Shown here: one piece after another, positions 26,134 through 33,462 of the stretch | Numbering within the stretch: the stretch's first letter is position 1 | Layout of the letters: every line of letters starts with the position of its first letter | NCBI RefSeq assembly: GCF_006442795.2 | Contig: NZ_CP083956.1 | Location: forward strand, 3,573,501-3,637,500 | DNA length: 64,000 bases | Reading direction: 5' to 3' | From: Mesorhizobium sp. B1-1-8 | GTDB taxonomy: Bacteria > Pseudomonadota > Alphaproteobacteria > Rhizobiales > Rhizobiaceae | Made by a program: the position numbers and the translations under genes | Notes under the pieces: generated by a model | Told to the model about the DNA's origin: nothing | Seen by the model: the letters and a program-made list of their open reading frames with translations, nothing else | Databases searched by the model: none

Positions 26134-26673
26134 ATGCAAACCTATGTCGCGCTGCTCTACAGCATCGGTCTCGGCGAAGGGCGACGTCTCGTGATGTCCG
26201 ATCTCAAGGCGATGGCGGAGGGCCTGGGCCTCAAGAATGCCCGCACGTTGGTGGCGACCGGCAATCTGGTTTTCGAGGCTCGGGCGAGCAAGCTTCCTTC
26301 TCTTGAGCAGCGGCTGGAGGTCGCTTTCGAAAAGACCTTCGGCCGCCATGTCGACATCATCGTGCGCCGCGCCGAGGACTGGCTGAAGCTTGCCGCCGGC
26401 AATCCGTTCCCGGGCCAGTCCGCGGATGCTGGCGACCAGGTGGCGGTGCGGGTGATGCGCGCGCCAGTGCCGGCAGATGCCATCACGGCGCTCAGGGCCT
26501 ATGCGGCCGAGGACGAGCTGGTGCAACTGGTCGACGGCGATATCTGGCTTGTCTTTTCGCGCGAGCGGCCGAGCTCGCGACTGCTCGCCGCCGCCAATCA
26601 CAAGCGCTTCGGCGTCGGCACGTCGCGCAACTGGAACACGGTGCGCAAATTGGCCGAGATGGTCAGCCCATAG
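26134..26673 (+). CDS. DUF1697 family protein
   Basis: A 179-residue protein of the DUF1697 family, function unknown. The family pattern is clear: YVALLYSIGLGEGRRLVMSDL at the N terminus, ARTLVATGNLVFEA near residue 45, and the C-terminal GVGTSRNWNTVRKLAEM. A diverged, frameshifted copy of its last third lies at 31636-31808, 5 kb away, on the far side of the metal-response operon. Directly after its stop begins a fragment of the NCS1 permease gene that is intact at 32 kb. Confidence 0.85.
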   Translation: MQTYVALLYSIGLGEGRRLVMSDLKAMAEGLGLKNARTLVATGNLVFEARASKLPSLEQRLEVAFEKTFGRHVDIIVRRAEDWLKLAAGNPFPGQSADAGDQVAVRVMRAPVPADAITALRAYAAEDELVQLVDGDIWLVFSRERPSSRLLAAANHKRFGVGTSRNWNTVRKLAEMVSP

Positions 26674-26741
26674 ACGCCCCAACAGGACGGCAGCCAGCTG
26701 GTGAAGTTGGGCAGGATCGAGGAGAAGATCGCGCCGATACT
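26673..26741 (-). pseudogene. Fragment of NCS1 permease gene
   Basis: About 69 bases directly after the DUF1697 stop match, with about three differences, the part of the permease gene at 32100-32168 (start AGACGCCCCA). The fragment has no start or stop of its own and joins DUF1697 at a short shared TAGACGCC. It is a scar of recombination, not a gene. Confidence 0.75.
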
Positions 26742-26969
26742 TCAGCAGCAATGATGCTGGCCGGCAGCACTCGACTGCCGCTCTGCCTGTTTTGGCGGAC
26801 AGGGATGATCGCCGTAAGAGCAAAATACGCAGCAATCACCCGGTAGAGGCTTGAGGAGAGTTTTGCAGCTTTCGCATTCGTAGAAATGCTGGCAGGCATC
26901 AGTGGGCATGGTCTCGGTTCTGCGATGGCCGCAGGCGGGACAGGTGATGGTGCTGGTAAGCTCCATCAT
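26742..26969 (-). CDS. GDCCVxC-type cysteine-rich small protein
   Basis: A 75-residue protein with eleven Cys in CxxC-like pairs (C10/C13, C26, C32/C35, then GDCCVFCSYGDHPCPP at about 44-59 and a terminal CC). It is the type of small protein often found beside mercury-transport genes; a zinc-ribbon or Hg/Cu-binding role is inferred, not shown. There is no signal peptide, so it should be cytosolic. The start overlaps the merP stop by 4 bases, making it the last gene of the metal operon. Confidence 0.85.
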   Translation of the reverse strand: MMELTSTITCPACGHRRTETMPTDACQHFYECESCKTLLKPLPGDCCVFCSYGDHPCPPKQAERQSSAAGQHHCC

Positions 26970-27247
26970 TGCGCATTCACCAATGCCGCTGCATAGCCAG
27001 CGTTGGTCGAAGCATCGGCGATCGCCCCGGTGCTCGTCTTGCCGTCGTCGAAGACAACCGTTGCAGTCTTGGCACCGACATCGGTTGAAACCGAGACAAT
27101 GCCGTCGAGGCGCCTGATCGCGGTCGCAACGGTGATCGGGCAAAGCGGACAGACCATGTCTGGAACTGAGAATGTGGCGGTGCGCTGGGCTGCGAGGGCG
27201 GGCACGGTGGCCAGGAACGGGACAATGATTGCAATGGCGATGCGCAT
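26966..27247 (-). CDS. merP: Periplasmic mercury-binding protein MerP-like
   Basis: A 93-residue heavy-metal-associated (HMA) protein with a signal peptide (residues 1-19, cut near ALAAQ) and the metal site DMVCPLCPITV (Cys33, Cys36). MerP picks up Hg(II) in the periplasm and passes it to MerT; other soft metals are possible. The fold pattern (ATFSVPDM...VSTDVGAKTATVVFDD) is typical. It follows merT by 11 bases. Confidence 0.9.
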   Translation of the reverse strand: MRIAIAIIVPFLATVPALAAQRTATFSVPDMVCPLCPITVATAIRRLDGIVSVSTDVGAKTATVVFDDGKTSTGAIADASTNAGYAAALVNAQ

Positions 27248-27258
27248 GGTGGGATCTC

Positions 27259-27636
27259 CTACAAATTGAGCTGCCCGAAGACATCGACTGCGGCCGCCGA
27301 CGCTGCAATGAGGCTCGCTGCCAACAGGATGAATCGGGTGGAACGGCGATAAAGAGGACTGGCGCAAAGAGAGCCCGCAACGCACGTGGCCTCATTGCGG
27401 CGGTAGCGCCAGAATCCGAAACCAATCGAGACGGCTGCGAGCGTGAGGAAGTATGGCTGGTAAGGCGCCAGCGCGGTGAGGCGCGCGATCCAGGCGCCGC
27501 TGATCCCCGCGAGAGCCAAGGCGAGGGGAAGGACGCAGCAGGCGGAAGCGAGTAGACCTGCCGAGAGTCCGCCAAGAGCGAGCGACAAAGCGGCCCGCGA
27601 TTTCGCCAAGTCGCCGATAGGCAGTGGTCCGCTCAT
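27259..27636 (-). CDS. merT: Mercuric transport protein MerT-like
   Basis: A 125-residue inner-membrane protein with three helices. It keeps the MerT cysteines: the vicinal pair Cys33-Cys34 in the first helix (SACCVLPLA) and Cys85/Cys91, six apart, in the cytosolic loop. MerT brings Hg(II) into the cell. The ATG overlaps the nrsF stop by 4 bases (ATGA), which makes it part of the SigF operon. No merA reductase, merB or merR is in the window, so import without reduction would be odd. The substrate may be another soft metal, or the reductase is elsewhere. Confidence 0.9.
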   Translation of the reverse strand: MSGPLPIGDLAKSRAALSLALGGLSAGLLASACCVLPLALALAGISGAWIARLTALAPYQPYFLTLAAVSIGFGFWRYRRNEATCVAGSLCASPLYRRSTRFILLAASLIAASAAAVDVFGQLNL

Positions 27637-28289
27637 TGGGGCCGCTCCAGGCGATTCGGCACGAACAGGTGGATGACGCCGCCCAACAACACAATCAACG
27701 ATCCGGTGCCTAGGTTGAACATCAGAATCTCGACGCTGGCGTCGAGCGGGTGGAACAAGGTGAGCGCAGCCGCCGTGATCCCGGCGACGGAAAGGCTTGC
27801 CGCGAAGATCACCGGCGCCGGGTCGAAAAGAGCGGCATGGCGAAGCATGAGGGCCAAGGCGAGCGACAAGGGCAGGCTGGTCAGCACCAACGTCGCAATG
27901 CAGGAAGCCGTCTCCCCAGGAGGCGCGCCGCCGGGAACCAGCGGGGTCCAGAAGCTCAGGCACTGATAACCGATCGAGAAAAGCCATGCGGCAAGTGCCG
28001 GAACGGGCAGCCACAGCCAGTGACGCGAGCGGCCGGGAACGCTGACGAGGAATGCCGCGACCGCGGCGAGAATGCCGGTGAAGACGGCCCCCGCGAGGCT
28101 GAGGGCGAAGCGGATCTCGGCCAGGCGAACGAGCAGGCCCGGCCGCCAGCCATGGGCAATGGCGATCATGCCGAGGATCAGAGCGGCGAGGACCAGGAAG
28201 CCGGCGGCGCGCAATAGCGGCGGACGGAGCCGCCTGACCGGCCTCAGATTGGCGGCAAGCGCAGAGATGAGATCATCCGTGGGGATCAT
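27633..28289 (-). CDS. nrsF: NrsF-type anti-sigma factor (DUF1109)
   Basis: A 218-residue membrane protein with six predicted helices, matching the NrsF/OsrA (DUF1109) negative regulators of SigF-type ECF sigma factors. The family keeps two cysteines needed for metal and oxidant sensing in Caulobacter; here they would be Cys110 (IGYQC) and Cys130 (ETASC). It would hold SigF inactive at the membrane until metal reacts with these residues. Start overlaps the sigF stop and its stop overlaps merT, each by ATGA. Confidence 0.9.
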   Translation of the reverse strand: MIPTDDLISALAANLRPVRRLRPPLLRAAGFLVLAALILGMIAIAHGWRPGLLVRLAEIRFALSLAGAVFTGILAAVAAFLVSVPGRSRHWLWLPVPALAAWLFSIGYQCLSFWTPLVPGGAPPGETASCIATLVLTSLPLSLALALMLRHAALFDPAPVIFAASLSVAGITAAALTLFHPLDASVEILMFNLGTGSLIVLLGGVIHLFVPNRLERPQ

Positions 28290-28891
28290 GTTTCACTCCC
28301 GCCGGAGAAGAAACTCCGAAGACGCCGGATGGCGCGGTGGGTGGCGACTTTGAGCGCTGCCACGCTCATACCGCTCGCCGCCGAGGCTTCCTTCAGCGAC
28401 AGTCCTTCGATCTTTGTAAGCCGTAGGGCTTCACGCTGGCCGGAGGGAAGATGGTCGAGGGCCGCGGCGATCTCATGCATCTGTGTCATGTGTTCAAGGT
28501 TCGCGGGCGGTTCCGCAAAGGTTTCGTGGGTAGGTTCAAATGCCGTTTCCAAGGCCTGGCGGCGACCTTGGCGGCGCAGACGGTCGATCAGCCTGCGTTT
28601 GGCAATTGCCGTGAGCCAGGGGCCGAACGGCCGCGCCGGGTCATAGGTCGCACGCACGGCGTGCACGGTCAGCAGTATATCCTGCACCGCATCCTCGACA
28701 TCGCTGAGATTGCGATGACAGCGCGCCGCGTGGGCGCGCAGGTATGGTGTAATGCTCGCGAGGAGCCGCCGGTAGGCGTCGGCATCGCCGTCCTGGGCCC
28801 TTGCCATGAGGATTGACCAATCCACCTCCCGCACCTGCGGAATGGGAGCAGATCCCCCCCTCACAAGCTTCAGCACAGGAGGGGTGGTCAT
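28286..28891 (-). CDS. sigF: ECF sigma factor, SigF type
   Basis: A 201-residue ECF sigma factor. Region 2 is around DVEDAVQDILLTVHAVRATYDPARPFGPWLTAIAKRR (residues about 72-108, in two blocks) and region 4 is around LPSGQREALRLTKIEGLSLK with the HTH ASAASGMSVAALK. With NrsF directly downstream and bufferin genes upstream, it matches the SigF group that responds to heavy metals in Caulobacter. It probably drives its own operon from the GTAACC-N16-CGAA site upstream of bufA. Start overlaps the DoxX stop by 4 bases. Confidence 0.93.
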   Translation of the reverse strand: MTTPPVLKLVRGGSAPIPQVREVDWSILMARAQDGDADAYRRLLASITPYLRAHAARCHRNLSDVEDAVQDILLTVHAVRATYDPARPFGPWLTAIAKRRLIDRLRRQGRRQALETAFEPTHETFAEPPANLEHMTQMHEIAAALDHLPSGQREALRLTKIEGLSLKEASAASGMSVAALKVATHRAIRRLRSFFSGGSET

Positions 28892-29370
28892 TGCCGACGC
28901 GCCTCCGAAGCAAATCGTCGCGCGACCAGCCGATCAACGGAAATGGGCCCTGCGCCAAGGGCAATGATGGAGATCGCCATGGCGGCCCAGGGCAGATGGA
29001 AGTTGGCCCAGCCGTCGGGCACCACAAGCTGGATGACACCGGTCATGACGAGCATCGCCAACGCCGCAAAGCGGGTAGCGAGGCCCAGAACCAGCAGCAC
29101 CGGCAAAGTGATTTCGGCGGTCGCGACCAGATAGGCCACGGCATCGGGCATGGGGAACCCATACTCGGCACCGAAGATGTGCAGCTTGAACTCCTCTTCG
29201 AACAGATAGATGGTGCTGTCCGAGAGCTGCAGGAATCCGTCCCAGCGGGTGAGGCCGGAGCGGAAAAACGGCACCGCGAGCGCTGCTCGCAGAAACAGCG
29301 GCGCCAAGGCCATGGCGATTGTGGAAAGCCACGTCGTCAGCGTACGAATCAGGTTCGGAGCCGACATCAT
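28888..29370 (-). CDS. DoxX family membrane protein
   Basis: A 160-residue inner-membrane protein with four helices and the DoxX-family pattern (FLRAALAVPFFRSGLTRWDG..., YLVATAEITLPVLLVLGLATRFAALAM). DoxX proteins are common partners of DUF692/DUF2063 genes; their role is unclear and may involve redox partners or electron supply. ATGs at 29370 and 29367 are both possible; each overlaps the bufC stop. Confidence 0.88.
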   Translation of the reverse strand: MMSAPNLIRTLTTWLSTIAMALAPLFLRAALAVPFFRSGLTRWDGFLQLSDSTIYLFEEEFKLHIFGAEYGFPMPDAVAYLVATAEITLPVLLVLGLATRFAALAMLVMTGVIQLVVPDGWANFHLPWAAMAISIIALGAGPISVDRLVARRFASEARRQ

Positions 29371-30161
29371 GATGGCTCGTCTCCGGTCTCCGGTTCGAGG
29401 CTCCAACCGATGAAAGCGCCGGCTTCAATCAGTCCGGCCAACATCGTCCTGAGATCGAAGTGCTGTGTAGCTTCGAGTACGGCGATCGTCGCGGCCACCA
29501 CTGGCTTACCGGCGCCCAGGGTCCTGATGAGGGCCGCAGCTCCCACCGGCAGCTGGCGCACGACGACTTCCGTGCCTGGGCGGATGATGAGAGCATCCTC
29601 ACCACCAGCCTGGAGATCGACAGCGGCGGGCTCGCCGCCGGCAATGTTCATGCGCCAGATAGTGAGGGCGGGAAACTGCGATTGCGTCACCCGGAGTGAA
29701 GGATGGAGCGCCAGCCGGACCTGGCCCAGGCAGTCCTTATCGATGGCAAGGAGATCATTCGCCGAAAGCGGCTCCGCATCAGCCGCGTGATACGCCTCGA
29801 TCCAGGCGCGCTCGATCCTCGCCACGTCGGGGAGGTAGGGGAGTGTCGCCGCGGGCTCGAACCCAGCGATGAATTCGGGGAGGCCTGCACCATAGTCCAG
29901 CATGATGGGACGCCGTGGTGGATGGGCGGTTACGAATTGCCCCGTCATCGCGCGGAAGAATTCATCCCCGACGATGCGATGAACCGCCGGATAATTTTCC
30001 TTCAGTGTCTCAATGAGGCCGGCCACGACATTGTTGCGATAGACCGCGAAGCGGCGCGGACTTGGCAAGCCGTCGGGTCCCACGAGGCCTCGCGGCGTGG
30101 CGCGAGCAGCGTCAAACAAGGCCAGCGCGAATTCCTGTTGCTGTTCAGCCAGTCCTTGCAA
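29367..30161 (-). CDS. bufC: BufC/HvfC-type protein (DUF2063)
   Basis: A 264-residue protein with the DUF2063 N-terminal domain (FALALFDAARATPRGL...RFAVYRNNVVAGLIETLKENYPAV, then GDEFFRAMTGQFVTAHPP and LPYLPDVARIERAW) and a variable beta-rich C terminus. It is the usual partner of the MNIO enzyme BufB. In related systems the pair acts together on the precursor peptide, with the partner thought to present the substrate. The start is a TTG at 30161, 8 bases after AGGAG, and it overlaps bufB by 17 bases. Confidence 0.88.
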   Translation of the reverse strand: MQGLAEQQQEFALALFDAARATPRGLVGPDGLPSPRRFAVYRNNVVAGLIETLKENYPAVHRIVGDEFFRAMTGQFVTAHPPRRPIMLDYGAGLPEFIAGFEPAATLPYLPDVARIERAWIEAYHAADAEPLSANDLLAIDKDCLGQVRLALHPSLRVTQSQFPALTIWRMNIAGGEPAAVDLQAGGEDALIIRPGTEVVVRQLPVGAAALIRTLGAGKPVVAATIAVLEATQHFDLRTMLAGLIEAGAFIGWSLEPETGDEPS

Positions 30162-31008
30162 GTCGCATCTCCTGTCCCGGCGCGTGAGACTTCATATACG
30201 CTTCGGCCCGCATGGCCTCGGCATGCAGTTCACTCCATGATGGTAAATCGGCATCCCATTCGATCAGCGTCGGCATGGGACCGAGTTTGCCGATCGCGTA
30301 CGCATAGAGCGCCCAAACCGACGGGTCGACCGGCCGGCTATGGGTATCGATGAGCAGCGGCCTCTGTTTCTCGTCGGTTTCCGGCGTGAAGCCGGCAAGA
30401 TGTATTTCCTGAACGGCGCCGAGCGGGTAGGCATCGATATAGCCGAAGGGATCCCACCGCTGATTGGTCGAAGCGACGTGGACGTTGCTCACATCGAGCA
30501 GCAGTCCGCAGCCGGTGCGCCGTTGCACCTCGGCGATGAAATCAGGCTCGGCATAGGTGCTTTCGGCAAAGGCGATATAGGTGGAAGGATTCTCAAGTAG
30601 CATCTGGCGGCCAAGTGTCTCCTGCACCTCGTCGATGTGCGAGGCGATGCGCCGTAGCGTTTCCACCGTGTAGGGCACCGGCAGGAGATCGTTCAGAAAG
30701 GCATCGCTATGACTCGACCATGCAAGGTGCTCGGAGAAAAGGCCTGGCTGATAGCGGGCGATCAGGTCTTTCAGGCGCCTCAAATGGTCTTGGTCGAGAG
30801 GCTTGGCCGCGCCGATCGACAGACCGACGCCGTGCAACGACAGAGGATAATGCTCACGCACCGCCGTGAGGTACCGGTGCGGTGGTCCGCCCGCTCCCAT
30901 GTAGTTTTCGGCATGGACCTCGAAAAAGCCGATGTCCGGTCCGGTTTCCAGGATCTCGCGGTAGTGCTGCGGCTTAAGTCCCACTCCGGCGCGCGGAGGA
31001 ATGTTCAT
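30145..31008 (-). CDS. bufB: MNIO enzyme BufB/HvfB (DUF692)
   Basis: A 287-residue multinuclear non-heme iron oxygenase of the DUF692 family. The conserved metal-ligand segments are present in order: GFFEVHAENYMG, LSLHGVGLSIG, FSEHLAWS, LLENPSTYI, GLLLDVSNVHVAS, VQEIHLAGF, LIDTHSRPV and LIEWDADLPSW. MNIO enzymes oxidise Cys residues of a precursor peptide into thiooxazole or related groups. Here the substrate would be BufA, encoded 65 bases upstream. The ATG at 31008 is chosen because MNIPPRAGVGLKPQHY is the family start. Confidence 0.92.
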   Translation of the reverse strand: MNIPPRAGVGLKPQHYREILETGPDIGFFEVHAENYMGAGGPPHRYLTAVREHYPLSLHGVGLSIGAAKPLDQDHLRRLKDLIARYQPGLFSEHLAWSSHSDAFLNDLLPVPYTVETLRRIASHIDEVQETLGRQMLLENPSTYIAFAESTYAEPDFIAEVQRRTGCGLLLDVSNVHVASTNQRWDPFGYIDAYPLGAVQEIHLAGFTPETDEKQRPLLIDTHSRPVDPSVWALYAYAIGKLGPMPTLIEWDADLPSWSELHAEAMRAEAYMKSHAPGQEMRLARTG

Positions 31009-31073
31009 GGTCAAGCTCCCGGAAGGCAATGGAAAGGGCGGATGGCGATGCCACCCGCCGCGGTTCCTGAGAT

Positions 31074-31406
31074 TCAGCCGATCGGCTTTAGTGAACCATG
31101 GCCATTAGGCGTGGTCATGGCAGTGCAGGTCCCCTTCGCCACCAGCTTGAAGGCATTGCCCTGGTAGTCCTTGGTGGACGTGCCCGCGCAGGTGGTTCCA
31201 GCGCCCGCGTAGCAGTCGTTGTGGCCCTTCAGCGCCACGCCGAAACACTTCTCCATCTTGCCGGATGCGACCTCCTTCTTGGTCATTTTCTGCATCTTCA
31301 TCATTTCTGCCTCGCTCATCGCGGCTGATGCGGAACCAATGGCGGCGGCGCCAATGGCTGCGGCGAAGGCACTGGCGACGGCGGCGGATATGAGGCGGTT
31401 TGACAT
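31074..31406 (-). CDS. bufA: Bufferin precursor BufA (DUF2282)
   Basis: A 110-residue exported protein with a signal peptide (about residues 1-29, ending SASAA) and four conserved Cys: 54, 65, 73 and 94, in [20 protein letters not shown] and KGTC. DUF2282 proteins of this shape are bufferins, ribosomally made peptides whose Cys are oxidised by BufB so that they bind copper in the periplasm. Metal chosen here is inferred. The ATG follows GGAGGAAAAGC, a strong ribosome site. It is the first gene of the operon and lies about 80 bases from an exact SigF-type promoter. Confidence 0.9.
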
Positions 31407-31482
31407 GCTTTTCCTCCAATGGTCGTTGTTGCACGAACCCTTCTCCCCCAGCGATGCCGGAAGCCGCAGGTTCTTCTGGAAG

Positions 31483-31508
31483 TTCGCGGCAGCGCCGGCG
31501 GAGGTTAC
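31483..31508 (-). promoter_or_regulatory. SigF-type ECF promoter upstream of bufA
   Basis: On the minus strand GTAACC (31508-31503) and CGAA (31486-31483) are separated by exactly 16 bases. This matches the GTAACC-N16-CGAA promoter known for Caulobacter SigF. The leader to bufA would be about 70 bases. I found no other match of this exact form in the intergenic regions I inspected closely. Confidence 0.8.
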
Positions 31509-31635
31509 GGCGGTTTAGACCATCACGGTTCACGAATCTGTGTAGTGCCGCAGTCGGGCTCGTTACGTGGGATGATTCGTGCTGGCTGTGCGCGAGATGC
31601 GCGAGCCCGTTCCCGCTGAGTTCTTCACGGCCTGA

Positions 31636-31808
31636 AGCCAATGTCGGCGAGGATGAAAAGCTGCAGGCAGTCGGCGGCGATATTTGGATTCTTTTCTCTC
31701 GCGCGCCACCCAATTTGCGGCTGCTTGCGGTGACCAATTACAATGGGCATCGGCACCTCGCGCAACTGGAACACCGTGCGCAGGCTGGCCGAGATGGTAG
31801 GGGAATAG
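31636..31808 (+). pseudogene. 3' remnant of a DUF1697 gene
   Basis: The translation GDIWILFSRAPPNLRLLAV, and after a frameshift (5 bases missing relative to the intact gene) GIGTSRNWNTVRRLAEMVGE, aligns with the last third of the DUF1697 gene at 26134-26673. Identity is roughly 70 percent over the best part. There is no start region. It may be the tail of the original resident gene, left when the segment at 26.7-31.6 kb arrived. Its stop is where the 8-bp tandem repeat begins. Confidence 0.8.
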
Positions 31809-31946
31809 GGGAATAGGGAATAGGGGAATAGGGGAATAGGGGAATAGGGGAATAGGGGAATAGGGGAATAGGGGAATAGGGGAATAGGGGAATAGGGGAA
31901 TAGGGGAATAGGGAATAGGGGAATAGGGGAATAGGGGAATAGGGGA
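31799..31946. repeat. 8-bp tandem repeat array (AATAGGGG, about 17 copies)
   Basis: About 17 near-perfect copies of an 8-base unit run from the last codons of the DUF1697 remnant; three units lack one G. Following bases 31947-32000 are rich in CCCTACTC-like units that can pair imperfectly with the array, giving a long hairpin before the permease stop at 32005-32007. An open frame on the minus strand (Phe-Pro-Tyr-Ser-Pro repeats) is a by-product of the repeat. Confidence 0.9.
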
Positions 31947-32004
31947 CCCAATTCCCTACTCCCTTACTGCCCTACTCCCTTACTCCCCTATCTACTCCCT
32001 ATTG

Positions 32005-33462
32005 TCAGGCCTTCGCCATCCTGGCGCCTGCGCCGAGCGCCATGGTACGCAGCACGTAATAGACCGCGCCGGCGATTGCCACGCCGAAGAACCAGCCGTA
32101 GACGCCCCACCAGGACGGCAGCCAGTTGGTGAAGTTGGGCAGGATCGAGGAGAAGATCGCGCCGATGCCGGCGGCGATGAAGGCGTTGATATGCCAGCCG
32201 CCCTGGAAGCGGAACTCGCCATTCTCCCTATAGAGCGCCTCGACATCGACCTCGCTTTTGCGGATCAGATAGTAGTCGACCATCATCACCCCGAAGATCG
32301 GCCCCATCGTCGCGCCGATGATGTTGACGAAAGAGGCGGCACTGCCTTCCCACGGTGCGAAAGGATAGAGCACCAGCGCGATCAGCGCCGCGATATAGCC
32401 GCCTTTCTTGAAGTCGATCTGGCGCGGAAAGACGTTGGAAAAGTCGAAGGCCGGCGAGACGAAATTCGCCACCACATTGATGCCGAGCGTCGCCACCGCG
32501 AAGGTCAGCGCCGCAAGGGCCGCCAGGAACCAGCTGTCGAATTTGGCCGAGATCTGGTCGGGATGCAGCAGCACCTCGTGATAGACGTCGTAGGCGGCAA
32601 TGGTGGTGACGCCGGCGACCAGCGAAAACAGGATCAGGTTGACCGGCAGGCCCCAGATATTGCCCTTGCGCAGCGACGCCTTGTCCGGCGCGTAACGGGC
32701 GAAGTCGCAGAAGTTGAGATAAAGCGCCGAGAAATAGGTCACCCAGATTGCCGCCACCGCAAACAGCGCGGTCCACGATCCAGGCTCGCCGGGCACGCCC
32801 GCGTCCTTTGTCTTGTCGAGCAAGACATCCATCGGGATGTCGCTGGTGAACGCGAAAGTGCCCGACTTGATGCCGAGGTAGATTGCCAGGATCAGCATCA
32901 TCACCCACACGGCGGGGCCGGCCCAGTCCTGGAAGCGGCGCACCGTCTCCATGCCTTTCTGGATGATCAGCAACTGCAGCGCCCAGATGACGACGAAACA
33001 GATCACCTCAAGGGTGGAATGGCCGAGAAAATGCGAGCCCTTGTTGAACTCGTCGAACCATTGCAGCCGCGTCAAAAGCGCCACGATGGCGCCGGAGGCA
33101 GCGGCCGTCTGCGCGCCGTACCAGAAGCAGGCGACGATCGCCCGCACCAGCGCCGGAATGTTGGCGCCCCAGATGCCGAAGGAAGCGCGGGCAAGCACGG
33201 GGTAGGGCACGCCGGTCTTGACCCCGGCATAGCCGACCATGTTCATCAGCGCGTAGATGATCAGCGAACCGATGCCGATGGCGATGATGAAGTTGACGAA
33301 GCCGCCACAGAACAGAAACAGACTTGCGGCGAGATAATAGCCCCAGAGGCTGTGGACGTCGGAGGTCCAGACGTTGAAGATGGAAAACGGTCCCCAGTTC
33401 CTGACCGTTGCCGGAGCCAGATCCTCGTTATAGAGGTCAGGCGATGCGCCTTGGATGGTCAT
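32005..33462 (-). CDS. NCS1 family nucleobase/allantoin-type permease
   Basis: A 485-residue, twelve-helix cation symporter of the NCS1 family, which imports cytosine, purines, hydantoins or allantoin. The N terminus has the family pattern SPDLYNEDLAP...RNW..FNVW (residues 6-30), followed by PYPVLARASFGIWGANIPAL. The ATG at 33462 places the pattern near the start. Substrate cannot be settled; the allantoin cluster 11 kb away makes a purine-breakdown product plausible. A 69-base fragment of its 3' part is also found beside DUF1697 at 26.7 kb. Confidence 0.88.
   Translation of the reverse strand: MTIQGASPDLYNEDLAPATVRNWGPFSIFNVWTSDVHSLWGYYLAASLFLFCGGFVNFIIAIGIGSLIIYALMNMVGYAGVKTGVPYPVLARASFGIWGANIPALVRAIVACFWYGAQTAAASGAIVALLTRLQWFDEFNKGSHFLGHSTLEVICFVVIWALQLLIIQKGMETVRRFQDWAGPAVWVMMLILAIYLGIKSGTFAFTSDIPMDVLLDKTKDAGVPGEPGSWTALFAVAAIWVTYFSALYLNFCDFARYAPDKASLRKGNIWGLPVNLILFSLVAGVTTIAAYDVYHEVLLHPDQISAKFDSWFLAALAALTFAVATLGINVVANFVSPAFDFSNVFPRQIDFKKGGYIAALIALVLYPFAPWEGSAASFVNIIGATMGPIFGVMMVDYYLIRKSEVDVEALYRENGEFRFQGGWHINAFIAAGIGAIFSSILPNFTNWLPSWWGVYGWFFGVAIAGAVYYVLRTMALGAGARMAKA

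Follow-up and report, generated by a model that had tools for sequence, protein, structure and literature searches.

In the 64-kb stretch of DNA from Mesorhizobium sp. B1-1-8 that was analysed (the window), nine minus-strand genes, bufA-bufB-bufC-doxX-sigF-nrsF-merT-merP-GDCCVxC, lie downstream of one SigF-type motif and probably constitute a single stress operon for thiophilic (soft) metals under SigF/NrsF control, in which merT, merP and the GDCCVxC gene (gdcc) would have joined a six-gene bufferin operon behind its nrsF. The sequence itself provides a conserved nine-gene order with overlapping starts, a conserved SigF-type motif, invariant metal-ligand cysteines and purifying selection. A sequence-only reading of this DNA had proposed the nine genes, their strands and the single upstream motif, all of which were recovered here:

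31483..31508, minus strand: SigF-type promoter motif GTAACC-N16-CGAA, the sole match in the window (0.03 expected)
31074..31406, minus strand: bufA, DUF2282 bufferin precursor of 110 aa, with a signal-like N terminus (by eye) and four Cys that align with those of other bufferins (PF10048, 82.1 bits, cut-off 22.4)
31037..31059, minus strand: stem-loop of 10 pairs between bufA and bufB (over nine loci, 97.8% of cells paired and 2 pairs changed on both sides)
30145..31008, minus strand: bufB, MNIO bufferin maturase (NF050167 equivalog, 386 bits, cut-off 310; PF05114)
29367..30161, minus strand: bufC, DUF2063 partner protein with a TTG start (PF09836, 92.6 bits), the TTG lying at overlap 17 in 9/9 loci
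28888..29370, minus strand: doxX (PF07681, 59.7 bits)
28286..28891, minus strand: sigF, ECF sigma factor (PF04542, PF08281; TIGR02937, 76.1 bits)
27633..28289, minus strand: nrsF, anti-sigma factor with Cys 110 and 130 (PF06532, 69.1 bits, cut-off 26.8)
27259..27636, minus strand: merT-type membrane protein (PF02411, 76.2 bits, cut-off 32.9), Cys 33, 34, 85 and 91 invariant in nine copies
26966..27247, minus strand: merP-type HMA protein with a signal-like N terminus (by eye; PF00403, 38.1 bits), Cys 33 and 36 invariant in nine copies
26742..26966, minus strand: GDCCVxC protein of 74 aa with 11 Cys, nine of them invariant in nine copies (NF041374, 106.6 bits, cut-off 40)

The measured junctions agree with the earlier statement that, from bufB on, all genes overlap except merT and merP. 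A gap of 65 separates bufA from bufB, bufC starts at its TTG with an overlap of 17 with bufB, and overlaps of 4 follow at bufC-doxX, doxX-sigF, sigF-nrsF and nrsF-merT, the last being ATGA; merT and merP are 11 apart, and merP and gdcc overlap by 4 or 1 (an alternative ATG lies 3 bases upstream of the gdcc start given above). The SigF-type motif is separated from the bufA start by 76 bases and precedes bufA in 8/8 orthologous loci; in one of them (L035) the spacer is one base shorter, at 15. Across the whole genome GTAACC-N16-CGAA occurs at 4 sites, compared with 10 for the reversed control pattern, so that the motif sequence by itself is non-diagnostic and the argument lies in its constant position in nine loci; a genome-wide SigF regulon based on the motif was unusable for the same reason. 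A scan of 26400-31700 gave no match to a sigma-70-type promoter, but shuffles average 1.2, so this absence carries little weight. The stem-loop 3' of bufA could stop read-through into the later genes.

This merT type was found in 9/146 Mesorhizobium genomes, and the operon is thus rare; however, all nine genomes share the gene order, and the ATGA overlap of exactly 4 between nrsF and merT, the junction that the sequence-only reading had singled out for a search in other genomes, is kept in every one of them. All nine genes are under purifying selection (dN/dS over 36 pairs), with medians of 0.15 for merT, 0.23 for merP, 0.12 for gdcc and 0.12 for nrsF. The operon is intact in at least two chromosomal neighbourhoods with different flanks, a comparison limited to 129 bases downstream in L032 and to 419 upstream in L035. 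Together with the shared order and junction, this upholds the earlier view of a single unit and shows it to be conserved. Among the 120 of 791 database matches listed, the named relatives sharing ≥74% identity with this MerT belong to Mesorhizobium only, and a plasmid search gave 348 partly matching records, none spanning 80% of the operon. The nine copies from the operon group together in a single clade of the MerT tree (100/100), which is tied to merT-merP-GDCCVxC modules of another genus by weak forks (93/55, 91/88); because of these forks, an origin of the mer module from that source is offered as a suggestion. Six-gene bufferin operons with sigF-nrsF behind doxX were found among the examined loci, and the nine-gene operon looks like such an operon plus an acquired merT-merP-GDCCVxC module.

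The Buf1 clusters under SigF/NrsF in Caulobacter (CC3254-CC3257 with sigF-nrsF) and Sinorhizobium meliloti (SMb20527-SMb20530 with rpoE7) share bufA-bufB-bufC-doxX, sigF-nrsF and the GTAACC-N16-CGAA promoter with the Mesorhizobium operon (PMC3511200, PMC6180224). They differ from it in that merT-merP-GDCCVxC stands behind nrsF in Mesorhizobium and in that sigF-nrsF has its own promoter in both other species. In Caulobacter, SigF is known to control the operons that are now termed bufferin clusters (PMC3511200), and for RpoE7, the S. meliloti relative, PMC6180224 reports no induction by Cd, chromate or H2O2. The switch itself, an ECF sigma factor with an NrsF-family anti-sigma, is present by Pfam domains. 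The cysteines of the NrsF in the window are at 110 and 130, whereas the genome's second NrsF has Cys 129 and 179, the Caulobacter spacing (C131, C181); in an alignment from which nrsF of L149 and L152 and bufA of L034 and L136 were left out, Cys 130 pairs with Cys 129 of the paralogue and a His with its Cys 179, the Caulobacter protein being compared via the paralogue.

We propose that NrsF would sense stress and free SigF, which may then transcribe all nine genes from the single promoter. BufB and BufC would modify BufA, which might bind metal in the periplasm. The same metal, or a related one, would be picked up and transported by MerP and MerT, while GDCCVxC, a protein with nine invariant cysteines, may act as a cytosolic thiol acceptor replacing MerA. 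Co-transcription, the metal and the direction of transport we infer from the genes and their arrangement, and the likeliest cargo would be mercury-class or Cu(I) ions.

That the operon serves true mercury detoxification, MerT and MerP importing Hg(II) to supply a reductase whose gene lies at another place in the genome, is improbable, and in its classic form this function was mostly rejected. As in mer operons, MerT and HMA/MerP-like proteins are present, and their ligand cysteines are retained in 9/9; MerA-like proteins also occur elsewhere (the best in G000 at 359 bits), and in strains of S. medicae two merA genes, merA1 on the chromosome and merA2 on pSymB, lie apart from the mer operon (PMC11227200). 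However, the MerA cut-off of 454 bits was reached in 0/7 operon-bearing genomes (G961 and G968 left out) and 0/8 genomes of other genera carrying merT-merP-GDCCVxC modules, compared with 4/4 Mesorhizobium controls with ordinary merT. Among the best six of 17 MerA-family matches in G000, four have the flavoprotein motif without the C-terminal Cys pair and two are without the motif, both of which are present in the control MerA of G115. Two MerR probes gave no match at E 0.001 in the window or eight other loci, while the L192 control matches, and a SigF-type motif stands in place of this regulator. MerT and MerP fall below their curated cut-offs (NF010314 equivalog, 78.7 bits vs 150; TIGR02052, 77.2 bits vs 92.55). 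The single unit of the sequence-only reading stands and is conserved, but its mer part is no mercury-detoxification set, with no MerR found in the nine loci, no MerA above the cut-off in the seven genomes scored, and MerT and MerP subthreshold. The operon supplies context for MerT proteins in genomes without recognisable mercuric reductase.

Copper homeostasis, in which MerT, MerP and GDCCVxC would carry Cu(I) and mercury would be merely a family name, is a possible though not the favoured reading: bufferins chelate copper and improve growth under copper excess (PMC12452194), and genes for a multicopper oxidase, SCO1 or DUF411 lie near GDCCVxC in 7/59 loci of a family sample and 8/40 of a relatives sample. 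Mer-type neighbours (MerR, MerT or MerF) are commoner, however, at 37/59 and 19/40 loci (the 59 omit G000 and G054, and three of them come from a single genome, G473). Moreover, bufferin-mer linkage occurs separately from the nine-gene operon as well, since in three further Mesorhizobium genomes a bufferin cluster adjoins a merR-merT-merP-merBA operon; these represent two arrangements, because L160 and L210 (G115, G981) are of the same island type, and in L192 merP is split across two frames. A reductase-free route for mercury or soft metals in general, in which the bufferin would trap metal outside the membrane, MerP, MerT and GDCCVxC would relay it to a cytosolic cysteine-rich sink and the NrsF switch would take the place of MerR, is rather doubtful. 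It is unlikely that merT-merP-gdcc landed behind nrsF by chance and is read through with no joint function with the bufferin, although most bufferin-bearing genomes are without the module (DUF2282 occurs in 66/146 Mesorhizobium genomes) and two genomes have a very similar GDCCVxC gene but none of the other eight genes in the 15.5 kb examined, with the L062 copy near a shared symporter. Against such a passenger stand the ATGA overlap and the purifying selection on merT, merP and gdcc, the survival of the whole unit in different neighbourhoods, and the separate bufferin-mer neighbours.

The probable single SigF/NrsF-controlled operon can also be set beside systems already linked to metals. In Cupriavidus and Legionella, the gig (gold-induced) operons have been termed bufferin clusters (PMC12452194), and that of Legionella responds to gold and copper (PMC5413113); unlike in Mesorhizobium, a mer module is unmentioned in those parts of their descriptions that were available. 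MerC-bufferin fusions likewise link a bufferin to a mercury-type transporter (PMC12452194), but as a fusion protein with MerC rather than an operon with MerT, MerP and GDCCVxC. A mercury role for some bufferins has already been proposed from these fusions (PMC12452194), so the mercury link was in print as a suggestion; for the nine-gene unit, which the sequence-only reading had thought undescribed, our literature search (supplements outside its scope) found no describing paper. Experiments tie bufferins to copper, while a role with other metals is a suggestion based on the fusions and on the name gig (PMC12452194), and the operon hints that these metal traps may also handle mercury-like metals. 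With a conserved bufferin/mer-type operon and separate bufferin-mer neighbours, an ordinary soil rhizobium offers a direct test of the mercury question.

The GDCCVxC (seleno)protein family, too, gains a context from the operon: the literature search found no paper on its function, and the ninth protein of the operon had no Pfam match. The AlphaFold model of this protein (mean pLDDT 76.8, pTM 0.57) had no Foldseek match at E ≤0.001, the weak ones (best E 0.43) including small zinc-binding proteins such as ZitP, and the best match of a sequence profile against the PDB (E 0.017) was a chain named RNA polymerase II; with no significant match, no function was drawn from structure. In other Rhizobiaceae, merR-merT/merF-merP-GDCCVxC modules have the same merT-merP-GDCCVxC order in several loci (L118, L140, L150, L153) but no bufferin operon ahead, and a MerR gene is usually nearby. 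A bufferin or nrsF gene lies near GDCCVxC in 6/59 family-sample loci; in these six, from other genera (L149, L152 and L156 being of one genus), gdcc is near a bufferin cluster but on the opposite strand, or ahead of the SigF motif in the case of L121, and hence outside the SigF transcript. Phylum-wide, GDCCVxC and MNIO genes lay ≤10 kb apart in 1/37 genomes with both (80 searched of 101 over the cut-off, 13 being outside the sample and 8 examined by region), closeness being judged by eye from coordinates and liable to be hidden by broken contigs. Besides G000 and G119, the six genomes examined by region gave no bufferin match in the stretches examined, whereas ~13 kb of G119 (locus L161) contain merT-merP, gdcc and also a bufferin cluster. 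At L062, the symporter near the GDCCVxC gene is the same as the one adjoining the nine-gene operon.

The nine genes form a conserved unit, which in the window is laid out as follows.

31406 to 26742, minus strand: nine-gene operon, in the gene order bufA, bufB, bufC, doxX, sigF, nrsF, merT, merP and the GDCCVxC gene (gdcc)
31037-31059, minus strand: stem-loop between bufA and bufB, strong and present in all nine operon copies

Eight of the nine gene names are backed by Pfam above the gathering score and the ninth by NCBIfam; among the NCBIfam equivalogs, BufB and GDCCVxC lie above the cut-off, and MerT (78.7 vs 150) and MerP (77.2 vs 92.55) below it. From bufB onward the genes overlap at each junction, with the exception of merT-merP (a gap of 11), and the stop of nrsF and the start of merT have an ATGA in common. 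GTAACC-N16-CGAA, given in PMC3511200 as the Caulobacter SigF pattern, has a single match within the window, directly upstream of bufA. The sequence-only reading had described the nine genes, their junctions and their SigF-type motif correctly, as judged by gene calls, Pfam/NCBIfam and the motif scan. Short TTCCCCTA-like units are repeated in tandem upstream of the promoter, at about 31800-31960.

With the window NrsF as query, a search through named species genomes, which reaches no further than close relatives, yielded eight contigs, all from Mesorhizobium and each with the nine genes in identical order. When the window MerT was searched against 146 Mesorhizobium genomes (E 1e-15), 30 places were found in 24 of them: nine at 78 to 100% identity, which, judged by the lengths of the contigs and the positions on them, are the nine operon copies (window plus eight contigs), and 21 at 38 to 46%. 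Loci L193 and L194, two of these nine copies, were likewise seen to have all nine operon genes. A gene-neighbourhood search had been proposed with the initial description, and the overlap of 4 at nrsF-merT was indeed recovered in 9/9 Mesorhizobium copies, as were the overlap-4 start codons at bufC-doxX, doxX-sigF, sigF-nrsF and merP-gdcc. Each of the eight other loci has the SigF motif ahead of bufA (in L035 the spacer is 15), and median dN/dS over 36 pairs is 0.05 to 0.23 across all nine genes. The combination of a bufferin pathway with merTP and GDCCVxC had been suggested to be an undescribed unit, and our literature search, supplements aside, found no paper describing it. The nearest published statement is that in passages of PMC12452194 on MerC-bufferin fusions, which are placed there in clusters related to mercury detoxification; according to the same passages, additional conserved genes occur in bufferin clusters in extremely low proportions.

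The stem between bufA and bufB has 97.8% of cells paired over the nine loci, vs at most 65.2% when slid, and in two pairs both partners have changed, which 18/500 shuffles also attain. Stems of other sequence occupy the same gap in bufferin loci L086, L087, L121, L144 and L192, a less regular one is found in L136, and the gap of L149 has practically no stem. The stem-loop may raise the level of the peptide above that of the other operon products.

By analogy with Caulobacter, where NrsF holds SigF until a signal acts on the NrsF cysteines (PMC3511200), NrsF is expected to hold SigF here and to free it when its own cysteines receive a signal, and the freed SigF would transcribe the whole nine-gene unit from the single motif. 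BufA would then serve as a periplasmic metal binder, MerP and MerT as carriers of metal across the membrane, and GDCCVxC, in which nine cysteines are invariant across all copies, as the acceptor inside the cell. The Cys spacing reported for Caulobacter NrsF matches that of the second NrsF of the window genome (Cys 129 and 179), whereas Cys 110 and 130 form the pair in the operon NrsF, as they do in NrsF of six-gene bufferin operons (bufABC-doxX-sigF-nrsF), and a His occupies the position of the second Cys. Because the pairs differ, the signal sensed by the operon NrsF may differ from that of Caulobacter. The second sigF-nrsF pair (L060, 7787-8939; G000:C1:1463348) has a GTAACA-type motif upstream, and an NrsF match is present in 116/119 same-genus genomes, 115 of these at E 1e-47 or better.

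In 9/9 copies MerT and MerP retain the cysteines that a metal carrier should have. MerA was not found above the curated cut-off in any of seven operon-bearing genomes tested (G961 and G968 were outside this test), nor in eight genomes of other genera carrying merT-merP-GDCCVxC modules; it was found in 4/4 Mesorhizobium control genomes with ordinary merT. Among the best six listed of 17 MerA-family matches in the window genome, four have the flavoprotein motif without the C-terminal Cys pair, and in the remaining two the scan did not find the flavoprotein motif; a MerA control from G115 has both. A search for MerR in the 64-kb window and the eight other operon loci gave no match. Cells that have MerT but lack MerA show a raised sensitivity to mercury. 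With no MerA above the cut-off in the seven genomes tested and no MerR match in the nine loci, the merT-merP-gdcc module should therefore not be classed among mercury-resistance operons. G961 is an operon-bearing genome that also has a merBA operon, i.e., a mercuric reductase-like gene elsewhere.

In the BufB tree the nine operon copies form one clade (100/100), nested within a clade (96/96) that holds six-gene bufferin operons from Mesorhizobium (L086, L087) as well as from other genera (L121, L136, L144). Neighbours of GDCCVxC were counted, their names having been verified on representative loci. Among the 59 loci of the family sample these were MerR (33), MerF-like (24) and MerT (17), with any of these three in 37, followed by flavoprotein oxidoreductase (7), copper-type (7) and bufferin or nrsF (6), and ten loci had no neighbour of the scored types. 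In the relatives sample (40 loci) 19 were mer-type, eight copper-type and 15 had none; bufferin or nrsF was near seven, six being the nine-gene operon and one a fragment. Several GDCCVxC loci have merT-merP-gdcc in the order of the operon. The simplest history is that a six-gene bufferin operon gained a merT-merP-gdcc module, with SigF/NrsF replacing MerR; the MerT tree gave no resolution of the donor.

Bufferin and mer genes also meet outside the operon. Three of the 21 non-operon MerT places in Mesorhizobium have a DUF2282 gene no more than 2 kb away, vs about 0.02 expected if places were random, a figure that ignores relatedness. At these three places (G115, G961 and G981) a bufferin cluster adjoins MerR, MerT, MerP and a MerB-MerA-like protein, in two arrangements; merP of one such locus (L192) is split over two frames, and two others (L160, L210) have nrsF without adjacent sigF and a SigF-type motif upstream. 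G119, which belongs to a different family, has a bufferin cluster together with merT-merP and gdcc in a stretch of about 13 kb (L161). The distance from GDCCVxC to a bufferin cluster, or to the nrsF of that cluster, is at most 0.3 kb in L121, L136, L149, L152 and L156 (the last three from one genus) and about 2.1 kb in L144; since gdcc is on the strand opposite the bufferin cluster in all of these but L121, where it is upstream of the SigF motif, it is a neighbour outside the SigF transcript. In the phylum sample, in which 80 of 101 GDCCVxC genomes were searched, GDCCVxC and an MNIO enzyme lie within 10 kb in 1/37 genomes holding both (G833, about 9 kb), and the linkage of GDCCVxC or mer genes to bufferins seems to be a feature of Rhizobiales, rather than phylum-wide.

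The operon occupies more than one chromosomal place. It is near pyrG in the window, L033, L034 and L036, yet the side of a symporter gene on which it lies varies; a second neighbourhood is common to L037 and L039, and the flanks of L032, L035 and L038 match neither, partly because they are short. Incomplete duplicates of the 3' ends of its two neighbours, a DUF1697 and a symporter gene, flank the window operon, which suggests insertion between these genes by recombination.

32093-32166 with 26664-26738: flanking repeat pair 1, 94.7%
31583-31798 with 26441-26663: flanking repeat pair 2, 72.8%

Two loci (L061, 7663-7884; L062, 7581-7802) have a gdcc very like that of the operon, the other eight genes being absent from the fetched 15.5 kb. 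The lone gdcc of L062 is possibly an operon remnant; it lies upstream of the symporter that also adjoins the operon. In L059 (7688-7991) a gdcc fragment adjoins an nrsF fragment on the opposite strand, with a multicopper oxidase gene in the same stretch, and the two fragments look like a decayed copy.
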